A DNA stretch of 64,000 nt from Styela clava (taxonomy: Eukaryota > Chordata > Ascidiacea > Stolidobranchia > Styelidae), in NCBI RefSeq assembly GCF_964204865.1, contig NC_135252.1, positions 6,035,383 to 6,099,382 on the forward strand. The letters run 5' to 3'. The number at the start of each line of letters is the position of its first letter. Position 1 is the first letter of the stretch. The position numbers were made by a program, and so were the translations under genes. The notes under the pieces are model-generated. The model searched no databases. It was not told the DNA's origin and saw only the letters and a program-made list of their open reading frames with translations. Shown here piece after piece: positions 9,563-42,781 of this stretch.

Positions 9563-10594
9563 TTAGGAAAGAACATTTGATTTTGGGCCTTCCACAAGAC
9601 CACACTCGTGCAACTGAGTTATTGAGTCTGCCACAATGCCTGCAGTATTTCGTGTGAAACCTCCTGACAGAACCATGGCAATAGGTATATCACGTCCTCG
9701 AACTTCAGTGAAAACAATTTTATCCCTTTCCTTGACACCATTAGGTGATATATTTAATTTTCCAAGCGGATCTCCTTTCAGAATATCTGTACCTGCGTTG
9801 TATAACACATACTGTGGATCAGCTTCATCTAACACTTCTTTGATGTTAGACTTTAAAAGATTGATATATTCATCATCTTTCATGGCATTTTTCAACTCAA
9901 CTTTACGCTTTATAGCCTTTTTTGCTGTTTCATCACCAGGAAATATCATGCAATTATACATGTCAAAAATATATACGGTTTCATCATTCATAAAATCATG
10001 AGCATATCCATTCCCTTGATGCACATCCAAGTCAATAATCAGTACTCTATTCACGCTTGGAAAATTCTTGCACAAATATTTAATGTTTAAAGTCACATCA
10101 GCATAAGGTGAAAAACCAGAAGGTTCTGATTTTCCTGCACTGCAATGATGTTGCCCACCACCAAGATTTATTGCCCATCCATGTTCCATAGCAAGCTTTC
10201 CAGCTAAAATTGAACCACTAGCTTGAACTCGAAGTGGTCGCATTATTGACTTTTCAATAACAGAGTATGGAAAAATTGCTAATCCAGATATTCCTGTTAT
10301 TTTTGCAATGGTCTTGGATCTTTTCAAGCTCTCCATATATTCCTGGGTATGAACTTCTTTCAACTCTGCTTCCGTAATTTCAACAGGAGTGGAGAATGAA
10401 TTAACTGTCAAAATTTTTTGTGCAATAAGTATCTGACGAATATTATTTCCTTTCAATAAATCAAATTTGCCCATTTTTTCTAATCCCATGAAGCGTAGAT
10501 TATATTCCGGACAATGAACCATAGGCCACAAATCATTTTTGTGCAGGTCAGAACTGCCATCCTCCCTGAGTTCAGTACTTGCACCTTGGCCCAT
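9563..10594 (-). CDS. HDAC11: HDAC11-like deacylase, divergent paralog lacking the catalytic Tyr
   Basis: A single uninterrupted 343-codon frame, the usual HDAC11 length (human 347). HDAC11 is the sole class IV histone deacetylase and an efficient lysine defatty-acylase. Visible marks: GGGQHHCS (His149-His150), IIDLDVHQGNG with zinc ligands Asp190 and His192, and YNAGTDIL with Asp270. The family's catalytic Tyr in SGGY is Phe here (LSGGFTRN, Phe313). The Gly-rich loop after the His pair (RGGGFCAYAD in the family) is KSEPSGFSPYAD, two residues longer and with fewer Gly. The N-terminus MGQGAST fits an N-myristoylation signal (Gly2, Ser6). It lies 1.1 kb downstream of its paralog, same strand. 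Zinc binding looks intact, but deacetylase chemistry is probably impaired (inference). Confidence 0.95.
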   Translation of the reverse strand: MGQGASTELREDGSSDLHKNDLWPMVHCPEYNLRFMGLEKMGKFDLLKGNNIRQILIAQKILTVNSFSTPVEITEAELKEVHTQEYMESLKRSKTIAKITGISGLAIFPYSVIEKSIMRPLRVQASGSILAGKLAMEHGWAINLGGGQHHCSAGKSEPSGFSPYADVTLNIKYLCKNFPSVNRVLIIDLDVHQGNGYAHDFMNDETVYIFDMYNCMIFPGDETAKKAIKRKVELKNAMKDDEYINLLKSNIKEVLDEADPQYVLYNAGTDILKGDPLGKLNISPNGVKERDKIVFTEVRGRDIPIAMVLSGGFTRNTAGIVADSITQLHECGLVEGPKSNVLS

Positions 10595-11734
10595 ACTGAT
10601 ATACTATGATTATTAATAATATAAAATGAAGTGACAGTGATAAAAATTTAGTGCATAAATGTGTAAAACTTTGTAATAATCATTTTATACAGTATATAAT
10701 AAATGAAAAATAAAATTGTAAGAGGGAAAATGGGTATCAACGTTGAACACTTCAATTCCATTCCACAAGCACTTAAAATAACAAGTGCTTGAAAAATAAT
10801 GGAGAGTAAGGTTTTGGCGAAACAATTGAAATTTTGAAAACTAAAAGAAATATAAAACTAGCATTTACATCAACATAAACTCAAATACAACTTATCACTT
10901 ATTATTTTTTTTTATTGCAGATTTATGCATACTATTGACAAATGATAAATGCTTTCACATTGACAGTGAAATTGATACAAATATCCAAATCTGACTGCAC
11001 ATTTCTAATCATAAACTATGTTTTTAGGCATATAACATATGGCTGTCCTCGATAAGCATATGAAAATGACCATATCATTGTCATGTGTATATTCATGTGA
11101 TGAAAATTAATATTGAAAACTATTTTTCAAAGATGCGATAAGCACAAATCAAATTCATCAATCAAATCAATCAATCAAATCCATAAACTCAAAAATATGT
11201 AAAATCAACAAAACCAAAATTTTTGGAAAGAGCATTTACTAGAGAAATGAATAAATACTGTAGTCTGTAGGTATTGCATTTAATCTAAATTTCATGAAAC
11301 AAACAGAGAAAAATGCAAAATCGCCAATAAGGTTTCGATTTTGATACCGAGTTCGTTTGTTAAAGATTTACCACAAGAAGAATTATGATTGTAAAATATG
11401 AGTCAAATTAGTCTGACCACTTAGTTCAAATCAGATTAATTTTGTCATTTTCAATTGAACACTACATCCAATGAGGCAATTTGGGCTCCATAAGACATTT
11501 GTTAGTTGAGTTATGGATTAAAGTTGAGATGATGTAAGTGACAAACAAAAGAATAATATAATTTATGAATAATATATGTCAATAAACACAGTAGGCTTTT
11601 TCATATGAGGTCATTCGAGATATTTCAGGTATCAACTATAAATGTATATTATGATCATGGATGGAGTTAATGATTGCAAAAGGAAGTATGAGAATCACTG
11701 TATAGAAAGCTTCCTGCAACTGATATCACATTCA
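10595..11734. other. Intergenic between the two HDAC11 paralogs
   Basis: AT-rich, with no coding, RNA or transposon signature I can support. It must hold the promoter of paralog 1 and the 3' UTR of paralog 2, both read leftward. Confidence 0.4.
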
Positions 11735-12826
11735 TTATTCAGAATGCAAAATATTTTTAGGTCCAGTTATAAATCCATGACTATTGAGATTGAAAATTGA
11801 ATCTGCTATTATTGCTGCAGTTGATCTTTGGTATCCACCAGACGTGAACATAACAATTGGAATTTTGTTTCTGTGGGCCACTTCAAAAACTATTTGATCT
11901 CTTTCAACAATGCCATTAGGTGATATATCAAGACAACCAAGTGGATCGCCGCTGAGAATGTCTGTTCCAGCATTGTACACAATATATTCAGGATTGAACA
12001 GTTCAATGACTTCAGAAAGGTTTTTTCTCACAAGTTCCAGATACTTTGAATCACTCGTTCCATGCACCAATTCCACCGGACGAGAAATGGCTAATTTAGC
12101 ACGCTGATCATTCGGATATATTAAACGATTATACACATCGAAAATGAAAACTCTTTCTTCACCCATGAAATCATGAGCATATCCATTTCCCTGGTGAGCA
12201 TCAAGGTCGACAATCAGGACTTTGTTTATGTCTGGAAAGTTTTCCCACAAATAACGAATGTTTAAGGTTATGTCAGCATAAGCACAAAATCCTCCTCCAC
12301 GCTCAGCAGAGCAGTGATGAAATCCACCACCAATGTTAATGGCCCATCCTCTCTCCATTGCCAACTTCCCTGCCAAGATTGAGCCACCCGTTTGCAATCT
12401 AAATGGTCGCAGAACTGAGCGTTGAACAAAGTAATTAGGCAGCATTGCAACTGGTGGAACTTCCGTGATCATTGCTACATTCGCACTCCATTTTAAACTA
12501 TTCAAGTATTTCTGGCTGTGTACTTTTTGCAATTCCTCTTCTGACGCTTCTAAAGGCTCAACAAATTCCCCAGGCAATAACATTTTCTTATCTATCAGCA
12601 TCTGATGAACTCTTCCCCATTTGCCAGCATCAAATGGATGCAACTTTTCCATGCCTCCAAAACTTACATTGTAGCCAGAACTGTAGACTAATGGCCAGGC
12701 TTGATCCGAAATATTTAGATACAATCTTGGAATTCTTTCATTCGACTTATCAAAGCTTCTACTGTTGGGTTTATGTTGATTCCTGCTGGGTTTTAAAGGT
12801 CCTTGCCCCATATTTCGTACAGTCAT
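11735..12826 (-). CDS. HDAC11: HDAC11-like deacylase, catalytically complete paralog
   Basis: A single 363-codon frame without introns. All HDAC11 catalytic positions are present: GGGFHHCSAERGGGFCAYAD (His170-His171), VDLDAHQGNG (zinc ligands Asp209, His211), YNAGTDIL (Asp289) and TSGGYQRS (Tyr332). The predicted activity is Zn-dependent removal of acetyl or long-chain acyl groups from lysine. The frame opens with MTVRN before MGQG; paralog 1 starts directly at the aligned MGQG, so Met6 (358 residues) is a credible alternative start. Together with the gene at 9563-10594 it forms a tandem pair in the same orientation. The absence of introns in both suggests retroposition or intron loss before the duplication. 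Confidence 0.96.
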   Translation of the reverse strand: MTVRNMGQGPLKPSRNQHKPNSRSFDKSNERIPRLYLNISDQAWPLVYSSGYNVSFGGMEKLHPFDAGKWGRVHQMLIDKKMLLPGEFVEPLEASEEELQKVHSQKYLNSLKWSANVAMITEVPPVAMLPNYFVQRSVLRPFRLQTGGSILAGKLAMERGWAINIGGGFHHCSAERGGGFCAYADITLNIRYLWENFPDINKVLIVDLDAHQGNGYAHDFMGEERVFIFDVYNRLIYPNDQRAKLAISRPVELVHGTSDSKYLELVRKNLSEVIELFNPEYIVYNAGTDILSGDPLGCLDISPNGIVERDQIVFEVAHRNKIPIVMFTSGGYQRSTAAIIADSIFNLNSHGFITGPKNILHSE

Positions 12827-13359
12827 ATAATCCTATGCAGCTATAAGCATTAAAACAACTACTGCACTGTGACTAGGGGTGGGAAATGTTGAATAATTTA
12901 TTACGGTATTTTAGAATACTCAAATCAAATCCAGAATACTGAATCACGAAATGGACGTATATATAGATAGTTTTGATATTATGTTCCTGTGGAATAAAAT
13001 GTAAAAAAAAATTGTAAATGTATCAGTCTTCGCGTGTAATTGAAAATGTTCCGATCATTGGCTCAGGCCAATGAAATTCGATAATTTCTGCAATATTTTT
13101 TTTTTATGTAAAAACAAAATTTTATAATTAGTCACAAGTTATCACATTTTTTTTTTGACCTAAATTGCTTAAAAATTTTCCTGGCAGCATTACCGCTCGG
13201 TTATTGAGAAGACAAAGTTTTGCTGCATTATTAGGCACTGTATTGGGAGTTTTGATATATATGTGTGGTGATGTTTTGTCCACCACGGCACCTTCACCAC
13301 AGTATATGCACGGCCAGTCCGAGACAACTGCAACTTATGCGCCGTAGCGGGTACCGCGC
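12827..13359 (+). other. Upstream of HDAC11 pair; one weak candidate exon at 13189-13347
   Basis: Mostly AT-rich and unremarkable. After a pyrimidine run and TTTTCCTGGCAG ending at 13188 there is an open frame to a TAG at 13345-13347, encoding a short peptide with a hydrophobic stretch (AALLGTVLGVLIYM). It is more GC-rich than its surroundings. No upstream exon on the plus strand can be tied to it, so I list it only as a possibility. Confidence 0.2.
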
Positions 13360-14909: not shown

Positions 14910-16379
14910 CTTTAGATCATTGTTCTCGGTAGAACTCGTAGGCCGCGAAAAATCATTTAATCTAAAACGGAGCATGGTACGTCTGTGAGAAATTAAATTT
15001 TGTGGGTCATATGACATGAATAAAAATTGGTATACAAAATTGGGCTAGATTGTTGAAATCAATCACTAACTAGGTCGTAAAGCTGGAGAAAGAGAAAATG
15101 GTGCAACAACAAGTCTTCGCCGTGAGGCGTTTGTTCATTCATGGGAGTCTTCTTGATCTGAAGCGCTAAGATTTCCGTGTTTGACGTCTACCGCTTTTAA
15201 TCAAACGAGAGAAATTTTGACGCAAGACGAAAAGCTCATCTCTGATTAATAAATTATAAAACCGGAAATACAAAAATTGACGAATGCTTTTAAAGAAGCG
15301 GAAACCAAATTCAGTTATCTGATCCCCTAATTGGATCCGAATCCTCCAGATTCGATATTCTGAATTGCCCATCCCTAACTATGGCACTTAAGTGCCACGG
15401 ACAGAGGCTATTAATTATAGTAGCAGGGAATGGCAATTGGGGCGATTAGGTACGCAGGGCTGGATTAACCTTTTGGAAATATAAGCACGTGCTTAGGGCT
15501 CCAAGGGAGAGGGGGCACCGCAGAAAAGTACTATCGAAAAATCTATATTGGTGCCTTAGTAATGGCTATCAAGTTATTTGATTTAAAACTAGTTTTTGAG
15601 AATGCACTTGAAAACTGACTCACGCACAACAATGAAAACGAAGCAAGGTTCACAACGATGCTTAGATTAGAGATATACATTTCACAGGTTCTTGTATATA
15701 CTTAAAACTAACTTAGACTACTTGATAATTTCATCTGATAAAATGGAGGGGAAATTTGATCATAAATGTGTCATTTTTCACAATAAATTCCCAACCCTGA
15801 TTAGATGAATCCAAAATTTATCCTCGTTTTGTAAATAGTTCTCTATAAACTGAGAGTTAAAAAAAAAGAACCTGTATCAATTTATGTATTTATTCATGTG
15901 TTGTATTGGGTGGTAACTGACTCAGATGACCGTAACTGGTCGTATCGTTACCTCCCAGTCATACCGAAGACTTTTGTTTCACTTATTATGTTATTATTAT
16001 ATTTAATATTATGTGTTTTCTGGTTGACGAAATAATAAATTCTCTCTCTCTCTCTCGGTACCGACTAAATGTAGACCGATATATTTAGATTTGAATCTGG
16101 TCCAGAATGTTTTAAAAAATTATTTAAAATACGGATGTTGAAATTATTTGTTGCGTGGAGGGATTTTCCAATTTGTAAAATACCAACATATATATTATTG
16201 GTGATGTTGACGTTATCTCCCATTCATGTCACTTTTTAAAATGATCACCCGCTTCAACAGCCTGTTGTACAGGCTAATGTCCAGCTTCTTGGACGAAAAT
16301 AAGTGCACGGAGTCGGAATCCGCAGATTTCAAGATTGTTCAGAGTAGAGCGCGATAGTTTATTGCCCTCAATCTACGTT
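14910..16379. repeat. Repeat-rich intergenic: hAT-end candidates and a (CT)n tract
   Basis: No gene. Around 15150-15380 is a degenerate repeat ending CCCATCCCTAAC. At 15455 a CAGGGCTGGATTAACC end could pair with TTCCCAACCCTG ending at 15800 as a ~345 bp hAT remnant, but its flanks match poorly. A (CT)n microsatellite sits near 16042-16056 just after AATAATAAAT, resembling a retroelement tail. Each assignment here is weak. Confidence 0.45.
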
Positions 16380-16639
16380 ACCACTGTGAAGCTAGCAGCA
16401 CTTTCAGCCAGAATATTTTTACACATTGAATATAGGTTCCACGCGCATATAGTGTTCACTTATAGGTAAATATGAAAATTGAAAATGCTGATCAAAATAT
16501 AATATTGTCACGAAAATAGATGAAAATTTTTTAAACTGAATGAATACATTAAATTTAACAAGAAAATAGTGTTCAAAAAAAGACTAACTAAGCGAAAAAT
16601 GAATTTTCAGGTATTCCGCAAATACAAAGTTTCGGAAAA

Positions 16640-18720
16640 TTATCCTTTTCGGAACCTCGATTCCTCGAAAACCGCCAATAAAGGCAGCACCACGACACAT
16701 TTGGAGAAAAGCAGATACCATATTAATTCAATTTTTCTATAACAGAACAGTAGCAGTACGTTTTGGCTTGACCATATATATTACCAAACATATCGTGTAA
16801 TCTAAATTTTAAAAACGGCATGGACGTAACAAATTTAAAATTGATTTTGTATTTCAACTATATTTGCTAGATAATGGATAAAATATCATTTTCTTTTTGT
16901 CACACATTAATACTGTACATCTTTTAAACTTGGAATACGTTGCGGGAAGTATAAAACAGCAAAAAATCATTTGCGACTCCAGGTGGATTCTGTCCTGGAT
17001 TACAAAAAATTATCGTTTTTAAAATGGCGATTTTTCGAAAACCGCCAATAAAGGCAGCACTACGACATATTCGGATAAAAGCACATACATTATAGATTCG
17101 ATTTTATTATGCCAGAACAGTAGCAGCACGTTTTGACTTGGCCATATATAATACCAAAAATAGCGTATATTCCTCGATTTTTAAAACAAAGGTACGTAAC
17201 ATATTAAAAAAGGGTTTGTATTTCAACTAAAGTTGCAGGATAATTGATCAAATATCTTTTTCTCTTTGTCGCACATCAATACTGTACGTCTATTAAAGTT
17301 AGAATAAGTTTCAGAAAGTATAAAGTAATAATAAAAAAAATTTTGCGCACCCCCTTGAATTAGGTTGAGAATTTCGAAAATTATCGTTTTTGGATTAGTG
17401 ATTTCTCAAAAACCGCCAATAAAGGCAGCATCACGACACATTCAGAGAAAAGCACATACCTTATAGATTCAATTTTATTATGTCAGAACGGTAGCAGAAC
17501 GTTTTGACTTTGCCATATATAATACCAAACATAGCGTATACTCTTCAATGTTATGAACAATGTGGACGAAACAAATTTAAAAAGGAATTGTATATCAACT
17601 AAATTTGCTGAACAATTGATAAAATATATATTTTTCTCTTTGTCACACATTAATACTGTACGTCTATTAAACTTAGAATGATTTGCAGAAGAAAAGTATA
17701 AAATACCAAAAAAATATTTTACGCCCTCTTCGTGGATTCTTTTCAAAATTTCGAAAAATTATCGATTTTGGAAGGGGAATTTCTCGAAAACCGCCAATAA
17801 AGGCAGCACTACGACACATTCGGAAAAAAGTATATACCCTATATATTTGATTTCACTATAACAAAACAGTGGCAGCATGTTTTGACTCGGCTACATATAA
17901 TACCAAAATAGCGTGTATTCTCAGTTTTATAAACATTGTCGACGTAACAAATTTAATAGGGATTTGTATTTCAACTGGAGCTGCGGGAAAATTGATCAAA
18001 TATATTTTTCTCTTTGTCACAAATGAATACTGTACGTTTATTAAACTAAGAATTAATTGGGAAAGTTTAAAATATAAAAAAAAACATTTTACGCTCTCTA
18101 TAATGGGTTCTTTTCTGAATTCCGAAAAATAATCGTTTTTGAAAGGGCGATTTCTCGAAAACCGCCAATAAAGGCAGCACTACGACACATTCGGAAAAAA
18201 GCAAATTCCTTTTAGATTCGACTTCACTATACCATAACAGTAGCAGCACGTTTTGACTTGGCCATATATAATTCCAAACATAGCGTATATTTTCAATTTT
18301 ATTAAAAAATGTAGATGTGACATATTTAAAATCGGTTTGGTATTTCAACTAAATTTACTGGAAAATTCATCAAATACTTTCTTCTCTTGGGTATGCAACA
18401 AAACTGTACGTTCATTAAACTTGAAATTAGTGTGCAAATCTTAAAATGCCAAAAAATGATTTGACGCGCTCTTGTGGATCCTTTTCGGAATTTCGAAAAA
18501 TTATCGTTTTTGAAAGCGCGATTTCTCAAAAACCGCCAATAAAGGCAGCACTACGACACATTCGGAGTAAAGCAGATACCTTATAGATTTGATTTCATTG
18601 TGTCACAACAGTAGCAGCACGTTTTGACTTGGCCATATATAATACCAAACATGGCGTGTATTCAAACTTTTATAAACAATGCAGACGTAACATATTTAAA
18701 AACAGTTAGGTATTTCAACA
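16640..18720 (+). repeat. Satellite array, plus-oriented half (6 units of ~370 bp)
   Basis: Six copies of a conserved 30 bp core beginning ACCGCCAATAAAGGCAGCAC at 16671, 17041, 17412, 17790, 18161 and 18532. Spacings are 370, 371, 378, 371 and 371 bp. Around the core, further conserved blocks recur: AGCAGCACGTTTTGACTTGG, CCATATATAATACCAAACAT and an ACTGTACGT box. Units are diverged from each other, so the array is not newly amplified. Confidence 0.93.
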
Positions 18721-20990
18721 AAATCTATGGAGTATCTGCTATTTTTCGAATGTGTCGTAGTGCTGCCTTTATTGGCGGTTTTGTGGAAATCGCCACTCCA
18801 AAAACGGTATGTTCGAGATATTAAACAAAATTACTATGGGGCGTGAGTCATTTTTTTGTTGTTTTATACAATTTGCAACTTATTCCAAGTTTAATGAACG
18901 TTCATTATTGGTGTACGTCCAAAAAAAAAGATGTTTGATGAATTATCCAGTAAATTTAGTTAAAATACGAAATCTTTTTACAATATGTTACGTGTACATT
19001 GTTTATAAAATTGTAAATACACGTTATATTTGGTATTATATATGGCCAAGTAAAAACGTGCTGCTGTTGTTCTGACATAATGAAATGGAATCTATATGGT
19101 ATTTTCTTTTCTCCGAATGTGTCGTAGTGCTGCCTTTATTGGCGGTTTTTGAGAAATCGCCCTTTTAAAAACGATATTTTTACAAAACTTCAAAAAAAAA
19201 CCACAAGAGAGCGTCAAATCATTTTTTGTTATTTTAGGATTCGCCGTCTTATTCCAAGTTTAATGAACATACAGTTTTGATGTATGACCAAGAGAGAAAA
19301 GTGTTTGGTGAATTATCCAGTAAATTAAGTTGAAATACCTAACCGTTTTTAAATATGTTACATCTACATAGTTGATAAAATTATATATGACCAAGTCAAA
19401 ACGTGCTGCTACCGTTCTGACATAATGAAATCAAATCTATAAGGTATCTGCTTTACTCCGAATGTGTCGTAGTGATGCCTTTATTGGCGGTTTTTGAGAA
19501 ATCGCCTTTTCAAAAACGATAATTTTTCGAAATTCCGAAAATAATCCACAAGAGGGCGTCAAATCATTTTTGGCATTTTAGGATTTGCACAATAATTCCA
19601 AGTTCAATGAACATACAGTTTTGATGTATGACCAAGAGAAAAAAGTGTTTGATGAATTATTCAGTAAATTAAGTTGAAATACCTAACCGTTTTTAAATAT
19701 GTTACATATACATGGTTGATAAAATTAAAAATTATACGCTATGTTTGGTATTATATATGGCCAACTCAAAACGTGCTGCTACTGTTCTGACTTATTAAAA
19801 TCGAATCTATAAGGTATCTGGTTCTCTCCAAATGTGTCGTAGTGCTGCCTTTATTGGCGGTTTCCGAGAAATCGCTATTTCAATTACGATAATTTTTTGA
19901 AATTTTGAAAAAAATCCACAAGAGGACGTAAAATGCTTTTTGGTATTTTATACTTTCCGCAACTTATTCCAAGTTTAATGAAAGTATAGTATATATGTAT
20001 GTCCAAGAGAAAAAGATGTTTGATAAATTATCTAGAAAATTTATTTAAAATACCAAACCGTTTTTAAATATGTTACGTCTGCATTGTTTATAAAAGTTTG
20101 AATACACGCTATGTTTGGTATTATATATGGCCAAGTCAAAACGTGCTGCTACTGTTCTGACATAATAAAATCAAATCTATTAGGTATCTGCTTTACTCCG
20201 AATGTGTCGTAGTGCTGCCTTTATTGGCGGTTTTTGAGAAATCGCCCTTTTCAAAAACGATAACTTTTCGAAATTCCGAAAAGGATCCACAAGAGGGCGT
20301 CAAATCATTTTTTGGCATTTTAACATTTGCACACCAATTCCAAGTTTAATGAACGTACAGTTTTGTTGTATACCCAAGAGAAGAAAGTATTTGATGAATT
20401 TTCCAGTAAATTTAGTTGAAATACCAAACCGTTTTTAAATATGTCACATCTACATTTTTTTAATGAAATTAAAAATATACGCTATGTTTGGAATTATATT
20501 TGGCCAAGTCAAAACGTGCTGCTACTGTTCTGACATATTAAAATCGAATCTATATGGTATCTGCTTTTCTTCGAATGTGTCGTAGTGCTGCCTTTATTGG
20601 CGGTTTTTGAGAAATCGCCCTTTCGAAAACGATAATTTTGTGAAATTTATCAAAGAATCCACAAGAGGGCGTAAATTTTTTTTCAGTATTTCAGACTTTA
20701 CTCAACTTATTCTAAGTTTAATGAAGTGCATTATTGTTGTGTGACAAAGAGAAAAATATCTTCTTTGATGAACTATCCAGTAATTTTAATTGAAATACAA
20801 AATCAGTTTCAAATTTGTTGTATATACATTGTTTTAAAAATTGAAGAATATACGCTATGTTTAGTATTATATATGGTCAAGTCAAAACGTGCTGAGACTG
20901 TTCTGACATATTGAAATCGAATCTTTGAGGTTTCTACTTTTCACCAATGGTGTTGCAATGCTGCCTTTATTGGAGGTTTTCATGAAACGA
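18721..20990 (-). repeat. Satellite array, minus-oriented half (7 units)
   Basis: The same unit read on the other strand. Cores lie at 18750, 19117, 19462, 19832, 20202, 20575 and a degenerate one near 20948. Spacings are 367, 345, 370, 370, 373 and 373 bp; the 345 bp unit carries a ~25 bp internal deletion. The switch of orientation falls near 18715-18730, inside a unit, where 'TATTTCAAC' of a plus unit passes directly into 'AATCTATGGAGTATCTGCT' of a minus unit. Confidence 0.93.
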
Positions 20991-21452
20991 CCATGTTACA
21001 CGACGAAAATTCAGTCATTTTTAAACATCTCTCAAAGAATTATAAAAAAATTTTGTGCACTGTAACAGTCGCTTTAGCTTGTTTACCATATATTAACAAT
21101 ACGAGGAGTGTAGTTGATGATTGTTTTGCTTTAATTGCTATTGTGAAACTAATCAAAATATACACTTTCTTATAAAAATCATTGGGAACATTTAATTTTA
21201 CGCGTGGGTATTTTCTTCGATTCTGTCAGTCACAATTTCGTGTTTTGCTGCTAGCTTCACAGAGGTATCTACGTTTGCTGTTTTGTTTCAAATGATTTGA
21301 CCGTTTTATATTTTTCTCTTCATTGAGGACATTAGATAGATATAATAGTTTGTTTGTAACCTTAATTAGACTCGATCAATTTTTGTATTAGTGTTGTATG
21401 ACTCTCCAAATAACCGCCGTCGCATGGCGAGTGGTCCATGGCGAGTTAGCCC

Positions 21453-23277
21453 CAGGGTTACGGTACCATATTGCTGTATTGGCTTTTTTAACGCCAAATT
21501 TGTCATTTTTGGCTTTTTTCAAACGTGTTTGGCGTCAGAATTTCCGTTTGGCATTTTGGCGTTTTTTTTTGGCTTTTTTCAAGTCTATTCTAGTGTCTAT
21601 TATTGAAATCATATGAAATACAATATTTAGTGTGTAACAACTGAACAATACCGGTAGCCTATTACCTGTACTTAGCTACCGTACTTAACATTAGGATTTC
21701 CTGGAGCATCGATTTCTTTGTTTGTTACATTAACTCTTAACCATACCCAATAATTGCAGTTTCTGCAGCTGCTCAGACATATGTTCAAGCCGGGTTGTAA
21801 ACATTGCCTCGTTTTTATAGTTTTCGGTGTTGTTGGCAGTTTTACGTTCTGTTTCCAAAAAATAGTTGTATAACATTATATTTCATAATGCCTGATATGG
21901 TTTATATGATATCAGTGGTCCACCTGTGAGCGGCAGGGGGTTAGGTAATTTTTTAATAAAATTGATGGTTTATAAATTTTGAAAGTGAAAAAATTTTCAA
22001 TAGTCAGATAGTAAAGTACGATATACAGATATAAGGAGAATTTTTTAGAGGCGCAGTTCTTACCACTTCATGGCAGCTCCTGCCACGAACGAACCGCGGC
22101 AACTCTTGCCATGGTTTTATAGCGCTGTTCTGTATTCAGTAATCAGGGGTCTTACTGAATACAGCGCGAAACACCGCAAAGAGCGCGAAACAGCGCAAAA
22201 CAGAGGAAACCAGCGCGAAACAGAAGGAAACCAGCGCAAAACAGAGGGAAACGGCGCAAAACAGGAGACGCAGTCATTACCACCTCCTGCCACGAAAGAA
22301 CCACGGCGCCTCTGGCCATGGCTTTATGGCGCTATTTCCGGCATATTTACAAGGTTATGTACCGGATTATAGGTCATCATGCAAAATTTTATCTACCTTT
22401 TTGGTGCTCCAGAAATATGTGCAGCAATATGTCGCACAACCTGAATCCGCTACACACACACACACACATACTATTTTCAGGTTGTGTGCCATCTTGGTGC
22501 ACATACTTCTAGAGGTCCCTTTTTACCTAACCCTAACCCTAAAGCCAATCATATCCATGTGGAAAATGTTCTAAATTATGGTACCCAAAATGTGTCACCA
22601 ACAGGGGCAGACTTGCCATTACAGCATTACTGGCTACACACGTTGGTTTGTGTTTTTAATTTGCTGCCGTGGCACTCCAACTCAAAACGAGGTGCCCCAA
22701 ACTCTTTGCAAAATTTTTTTCTGCTTCACACTGTTTCCCTCTGTTTTGCGCTCTTTCGCGCTGTTTCCACACTGTTTTGCGCTGTTTCGCGGTGTTTCGC
22801 GCTGTAATCAGTAAGTAGTAAGAACGTTCCGGAGGTCCCTTTTTACCTAACCCTAACCCTAAAGCAACCATATCCACATGGAAAATGTTCTAAATTATGG
22901 TACCCAAAATGTGTCACCAGCAGGGGCAGACCTACCATTACAGCATTACTGGCTACATACGTTGGTTTGTGTTTTTAATTTGCTGCCGTGGTAATCCAAC
23001 TCAAAACAAGGTGCCCTGAACTCATTGCAAAATTTTTTTCTGCTTCACACTGTTTCCCTCTGTTTTGCGCTCTTTCGCACTGTTTTCCCACTATTTTGCG
23101 CTGTTTCGCGCTCTTTGCGGTGTTTCGCGCTGTATTCAGTAAGTAGTAAGACCGGTACCGTACGTTGCCAAGGGCTTAAAATCTGACAAATCATGGGGCT
23201 TTTGTACTTAGTAAAATTGTTGGCTTTTTTTATGTCTTGGTTTGGCTTTTTTTGATCGCTGGGGTCTGGCAACCCTG
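21453..23277. mobile_element. 1.8 kb non-autonomous hAT element with perfect 8 bp target duplication
   Basis: Left end CAGGGTTACGG, right end (reversed) CAGGGTTGCCAGACC, flanked on both sides by the identical 8 bp GTTAGCCC (21445-21452, 23278-23285). No transposase. The interior contains GCTTTTTT-rich ends, a tandem duplication of ~320 bp (22512-22822 and 22832-23150), an array of short GCGCAAAACAG-type repeats near 22150-22270 inverted relative to the GTTTTGCGC repeats in each duplicated unit, and an (AC)n run near 22453. Confidence 0.85.
22512..23150 (+). repeat. Tandem duplication inside the hAT element
   Basis: Two units starting GAGGTCCCTTTTTACC at 22512 and 22832 are alike over their whole length with few differences. 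Each contains two TAACCC copies, AATGTGTCACCA.CAGGGGCA, and ends in a run of CTGTTTTGCGC-like short repeats followed by AGTAAGTAGTAAG. The copy count may vary between alleles. Confidence 0.9.

Positions 23278-35811: not shown

Positions 35812-42781
<6,970 letters not shown>

Follow-up and report, generated by a model that had tools for sequence, protein, structure and literature searches.

A gene-less foldback element with head-on satellite arms in Styela clava, probably derived from a large Rehavkus-like DNA transposon

How satellites are dispersed is an open question, and foldback elements with satellite-built arms, such as Tetris, had no known transposase in the available part of the published account (PMC4079207). 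The locus described here raises this question directly, as two arrays of a ~370-bp unit run head-on between inverted ends within a stretch of 64,000 nucleotides (hereafter the window; C3:6035383-6099382). Is this satellite a local expansion or the body of a transposed unit and, if it was transposed, which protein moved it? We searched the 376.6-Mb genome from which the window comes. It holds a gene-bearing element, many gene-less derivatives with a readable unit order and sister families built on other satellites, a set that makes the mover protein, the binding-site role of the units and changes in arm length and centre orientation testable.

Without its target duplications, the element spans positions 16380-21266 of the window (4887 bp) and is laid out as follows:

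16371..16379, no strand: left target site duplication (TSD) ATCTACGTT, an exact match to 21267-21275, with one copy only in the related empty site L060
16380..16400, + strand: left terminal inverted repeat (TIR; A end) ACCACTGTGAAGCTAGCAGCA, from the inverted-repeat comparison and the genome-wide TIR-like sites
16401..16629, + strand: left subterminal sequence outside the array, from the recurrence of the left 730 bp of the element elsewhere
16630..18724, + strand: A arm, six units of ~370 bp (TRF, 371 bp x 5.6; cores)
18500..18859, no strand: centre with the head-on junction (near 18725), shared by 12 of 24 copies at identities of 93% or above
18725..20980, - strand: B arm, seven units in the opposite orientation (TRF, 19380-20980, 370 bp x 4.3; cores)
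20981..21245, - strand: right subterminal sequence outside the array, unlike the left one beyond the TIR
21246..21266, - strand: right TIR (B end) ACCTCTGTGAAGCTAGCAGCA, from the inverted-repeat comparison
21267..21275, no strand: right TSD ATCTACGTT, an exact match to the left one

The sequence-only reading of this stretch had described near-identical ends, an exact 9-bp duplication and six plus seven opposed units of ~370 bp that meet near 18720, and each of these features was recovered. The TIRs are 21 bp long and identical at 20 of 21 bases, with one difference (chance expectation across the window, allowing 3 mismatches: 0.00), ATCTACGTT is found exactly on both sides, and the head-on junction lies near 18725. 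At up to 4 mismatches the unit core occurs six times on the plus and seven times on the minus strand; at up to 3 mismatches the counts are 6 and 6, as the outermost right-hand core is diverged and hence seen only at the looser limit. Unique inverted homology at the termini ends after 21 bp, the remaining inverted symmetry being satellite, and the left and right subterminal sequences have no homology to each other past the TIR. The unit measures 370-371 bp, with matches of 79% and 82% within the two arrays (TRF). The arms, of 2345 and 2542 nt, are complementary at 79.6% of aligned columns, compared with 63.5% and more gaps for a shuffled arm; on paper, they could form a long imperfect foldback. 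Within the element, no stop-to-stop ORF reaches 120 aa, and an Rfam scan returned nothing at gathering scores. Viral contigs scanned with a 21-bp piece of the core gave no match, and a 17-bp piece of the TIR matched five of them (L001-L005), a match this short being weak.

The left 730 bp of the element is found in at least 10 other places of the genome at 98-99%, and the TIR pattern (up to 3 mismatches) at 405 sites, compared with 7 for the reversed control. Among ~100 exact TIR sites listed, the last on contig C9, we picked by eye 36 convergent pairs no more than 30 kb apart. The copies examined (n = 25) comprise 21 of these 36 pairs and four on C10, C14 and C16 taken from the matches to the left 730 bp; the other 15 listed pairs, including three short ones of 1.4-3.2 kb, were left out of the comparison. 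One of the 25 is a 28-kb gene-bearing copy, and the remaining 24, window counted, were compared with each other. As the sequence-only reading predicted, the same ends recur at other loci with variable numbers of units: the window element and its 23 further copies all share both ends and the head-on arrays, with all plus cores ahead of all minus cores, and they span 4.7-12.3 kb with 4-21 units per arm.

We then typed 506 units of these arrays by single linkage at 97% identity. Recent copies have constant outer units at both ends and a variable middle, and several older copies consist mostly of untyped units. Conservation along 426 full units is higher in two blocks, where 20-bp means reach 97.7% and 95.7%, compared with ~77-93% over most of the remainder, and TAGCAGCAC of the TIR is also found in the second of these blocks and in the 195-bp unit of a sister family. 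In the best of 16 comparisons made between TIR and unit (TIR plus 12 bp), the likeness was equalled by about one in 300 shuffles; between the 60-bp ends and the unit it lacked significance (for the 370-bp unit, 7-74% of shuffles scored as high). By analogy with Galileo, whose long TIRs are internally repetitive and contain tandem repeats with extra transposase binding sites in the available part of its description (PMC3688188), the conserved blocks may act as additional binding sites for the transposase.

Among the 12 copies that keep the centre, window counted, eight have it in the window orientation and four inverted relative to the ends. An inverted centre at 82% in a further copy (C4_23613) was excluded from this count, and 11 of the 24 copies have no centre match of sufficient length. 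The occurrence of both orientations could mean that the centre acts as a switch, flipped again and again when one inverted arm recombines with the other. We consider this unlikely because the four inverted centres group together (local support 0.79), have one fixed difference in common and are less divergent from each other (0.009) than the others are (0.031), a pattern expected if a single inversion was then copied. In trees of the two ends, which have poor resolution, the four copies do not all group. Given the clustering and the shared fixed difference of the inverted centres, the simpler explanation is that a single inversion was spread by transposition, and the inverted centre in these 4 of 12 copies probably stems from one event.

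Which protein, then, moved these copies? The gene-bearing copy at C1:30735022-30763261 (28.2 kb) has an exact TIR pair and an exact 9-bp TSD GGTACACAT, and runs from TIR through 370-bp array, gene and inverted 370-bp array to TIR. Its A-end array matches that of the window at 95.8% over 1968 bp and its B-end array at 87.6% over 1986 bp. This copy was read except for 30737001-30745299 and 30758501-30761299, and no 370-bp unit was found from 30745300 to ~30756970. It contains an open frame of 1875 aa, with the protein-search match at C1:30750253-30754662. Pfam identifies a PHD finger (1.3e-6; 28.8 bits against a cut-off of 24) and a USP domain (5.5e-16) in the predicted protein. A SENP-like region with H1262, D1279 and C1327 was recognized by eye and by its likeness to a 1665-aa protein of a sister family; a profile search at 0.01 returned no SENP. 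Residues D581, D655, C701-x2-H704 and E916 are invariant in five members of the protein family, and D, D, C-x2-H, E is the order found in Mutator-type DDE domains. This DDE-like core has no Pfam match, and PF10551 (MULE) does not find it. The prediction that a Mutator-type transposase with matching ends would identify the driver was borne out with a refinement: a transposase-like ORF lies inside the same ends and arrays, and it resembles Rehavkus and has no match to the Pfam MULE model.

A genome search with the 1665-aa sister protein gave 47 matches, which we merged by eye to 28 loci. For at least 10 of the 28, a listed TIR is no more than 20 kb away, and the other 18 have none of the listed TIRs inside that distance. 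At 15 kb the count is at least 8, compared with a random mean of 0.34 and maximum of 4 of 28 (5000 draws, 0-20 Mb). Alternatively, the mover could be a classical MULE, Merlin or another transposase that duplicates 8-9 bp, with the Rehavkus-like ORF of the 28-kb copy as a passenger. MULE and Merlin also fit the TSD length, the genome contains both (82 matches to PF10551 and 13 to PF12762) and the catalytic core of the 1875-aa protein goes unrecognized by Pfam. However, none of the 82 MULE matches and none of the 13 Merlin matches (IS1595-type) lies within 20 kb of the listed TIRs, against at least 10 of 28 loci for the PHD/USP protein, and a 38-kb sister element, which has an exact 9-bp TSD of its own, encloses the same kind of protein within its matching ends, so that we regard a passenger ORF as quite improbable. 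A profile of the KDZ transposase (PF18758) gave no match; its control matched nowhere either, so this search is uninformative. The C1 copy with its Rehavkus-like ORF is instead the probable driver of the window element. Both the driver assignment and transposition itself are read from sequence, and the action of the 1875-aa protein on these ends is something we infer.

Sister families have nearly the same ends. A TIR pattern built to miss most ends of the window family found 129 sites, against 2 for the control, with other neighbours. A family-2 copy at C8:14565191-14576888 has ~23 units (196 bp each) and ~6 inverted ones around a centre of 4.5 kb that is not satellite, with the TSD CATTCATC. 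The family-3 copy at C10:16473369-16511692 (L046, L047 and L051) is 38.3 kb long, with an exact 9-bp TSD CTTTACAGT and 196-bp units at one end. It holds the open 1665-aa frame, in which a USP domain (1.3e-10) and a SENP1-like region (2.5e-6) are found and the PHD match is below cut-off (2.6e-4; 21.4 bits), and a separate 197-aa frame with a C-terminal part that resembles, by eye, that of the 1875-aa protein. Pfam recognized none of seven other ORFs (six from a family-2 centre and one from a family-3 end) above cut-off. Units of 195-196 bp occur in family 2, in family 3 and in the neighbour of copy L016, and they are mutually related. We claim no kinship of the 370-bp unit with these units; one of six comparisons was marginal (78, where 60 shuffles reached at most 68).

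Further elements with related ends were seen along the way. The neighbour of L016 is a sister element that begins 7 bases beyond that copy (from 8474 of L016; C4:20279373 onwards), with nearly the same TIR and a 195-bp tandem unit. At L048 (C5:3220949-3221132), a 184-bp MITE-like copy consists of the two family-3 ends, and 8 of 9 bases are the same in its two flanks. On C16, a 46-kb TIR pair (15015913-15061869) encloses a protein similar to the 1665-aa PHD/SENP/USP protein. TIRs ending in CAGCATTTT, for example at C2:18759573, C8:13750019, C14:20108461, C8:8390317, C2:23158683 and C16:2653478, represent a fourth end type, of which six sites are near genes for a protein of the PHD/SENP/USP kind, a further gene-bearing family.

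The target sites bear on whether the window element was inserted at all. Duplications of 9 bp had been predicted at other loci; exact TSDs of 8-9 bp flank 17 of the 24 compared copies, window included (14 of 9 bp and three of 8 bp), and as a control none of 552 left-right pairings between different copies matches exactly. Exact TSDs are absent in seven copies: the flanks match partially or nearly in L015, L020, L021 and C4_23613, another TIR lies 7 bp off in L016, the right end is doubled in C3_5176 with a near match at the inner one, and no target duplication was found in C3_7643. When the window flanks were joined with one target copy, 38 other places matched, 35 of them spanning the junction, at 72-85% identity. 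Four empty sites that we fetched align through the junction, and for all four the score with a single target copy exceeds that with two; L060 has ATCTACGTT and the adjoining bases intact, and the other three sites are one base off the target each. Since the joined flanks match other repeat copies through the junction, the window element was inserted into an older interspersed repeat, and the matched empty sites are paralogous, not alleles.

Copies, duplications and related empty sites thus agree with the initial proposal that the satellite is the body of a transposed unit and not a local expansion. Although tandem and inverted arrays are difficult to assemble, a local satellite expansion or an assembly artefact with chance flanking repeats has a negligible probability given the ends and head-on layout common to all 24 loci, the TSDs (17 of 24 against 0 of 552) and the single target copy in related empty sites, and the differences among units, and in unit order and number among copies, also speak against assembly collapse. 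As a separate observation, a copy of the host repeat at C5:24559360-24559522 begins 30 bp past the TIR of another pair of the same family, perhaps reflecting a target preference.

Taken together, the window element is very likely non-autonomous: a gene-less copy, moved in trans, that derives from a large DNA transposon of the Rehavkus-like (Mutator-related) kind. Its ancestor would have been a full element such as that at C1:30735022-30763261, with the gene between opposed 370-bp arrays. Loss of the gene region would have left the two arrays head-on, and the transposase of a gene-bearing copy would move the derivative in trans, producing target duplications of 9 bp and sometimes of 8 bp. We infer that the derivative arose through gene loss and that arm length shifts by unequal exchange or gap repair.

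We set the element against the published features of Rehavkus. The available text describes a 9-bp TSD, a TIR of 26-400 bp, one ORF, a PHD finger and a minisatellite, with arthropods and annelids as hosts and a position as outgroup to MULEs (PMC6446971); Rehavkus also serves as outgroup in the accessible part of PMC13359780. Rehavkus-1_TC, according to the portion available, measures 9.5 kb and has a 164-bp satellite arrayed in its inverted termini (PMC10218199). Shared with these descriptions are the 9-bp TSD (14 of 24 copies and the gene-bearing copy; PMC6446971), the PHD finger above cut-off in the 1875-aa protein and the tandem repeats near the ends, here 370-bp arrays in both arms. With its PHD finger, 9-bp TSD and satellite-bearing ends, the window element is best read as Rehavkus-like. 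Conversely, the unique inverted homology of the ends covers 21 bp here, against a TIR of 26-400 bp, and the inverted arrays extend the homology to kilobases; the window copy is gene-less and nearly all satellite; at 28.2 kb, the gene-bearing relative is longer than Rehavkus-1_TC with its 9.5 kb (PMC10218199); and the protein has USP and SENP-like regions, of which the available parts of the Rehavkus accounts make no mention (PMC6446971, PMC10218199).

The window element also has the long inverted arms, internal tandem repeats and TSD of the foldback structural class. Foldback (FB) and TU elements have long inverted arms of tandem repeats with much shorter units, and Galileo has a 7-bp TSD. The likeness to FB and TU, inverted arms built from tandem repeats, is to their general description, not to their sequence. 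Galileo belongs to the P superfamily and has a THAP domain in the available text (PMC3688188), whereas the protein here has a PHD finger. Tetris of Drosophila virilis is a foldback with variable ~220-bp units in its arms and TSDs of 8-10 bp, and no transposase was found for it in the portion available (PMC4079207). Like the copies described here, Tetris copies are gene-less and carry variable tandem units in inverted arms, and the Tetris unit and flanking domain share a stretch. However, Tetris has flanking domains of up to 866 bp and a middle domain, whereas here the arrays meet directly, and no gene-bearing copy is given for it in the same excerpt (PMC4079207), whereas one exists here. The initial comparison with Foldback, Galileo and TU elements, perhaps as a new family, therefore holds for the foldback structure, but satellite-bearing inverted ends were already published for Rehavkus and Tetris, as the available parts of their accounts make clear. 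A limited literature search found no account of a PHD-DDE-SENP-USP transposase or of a gene-less head-on Rehavkus, which is weak evidence of novelty.

These observations allow a joint reading that we offer only tentatively. Satellites might be both made and spread by giant transposases of one kind, in which a single protein combines a PHD finger and a DDE core with SUMO-protease-like and ubiquitin-protease domains. Sub-families with the shared end would each maintain a separate tandem unit, of 370 bp here and of 195-196 bp in the sisters (three related versions), as an array of transposase binding sites that can be tuned, gene-less head-on copies such as the window element would be compact carriers that seed arrays genome-wide, and the protease domains might counter SUMO- or ubiquitin-based silencing by the host.

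The surroundings of the element in the window contain other repeats and genes. Just to its right, at 22161-22264, 22727-22805 and 23044-23131, are short tandem arrays that have a period of ~10 bp and units complementary in part (GCGCAAAACAG and CTGTTTCGCGC). A perfect two-copy tandem duplication of 194 bp lies at 37567-37956 and is either recent or an assembly effect. Two adjacent single-ORF histone deacetylase genes occupy the minus strand at 9563-10603 and 11735-12832, and other ORFs of the window match an EH domain and actin (Pfam).
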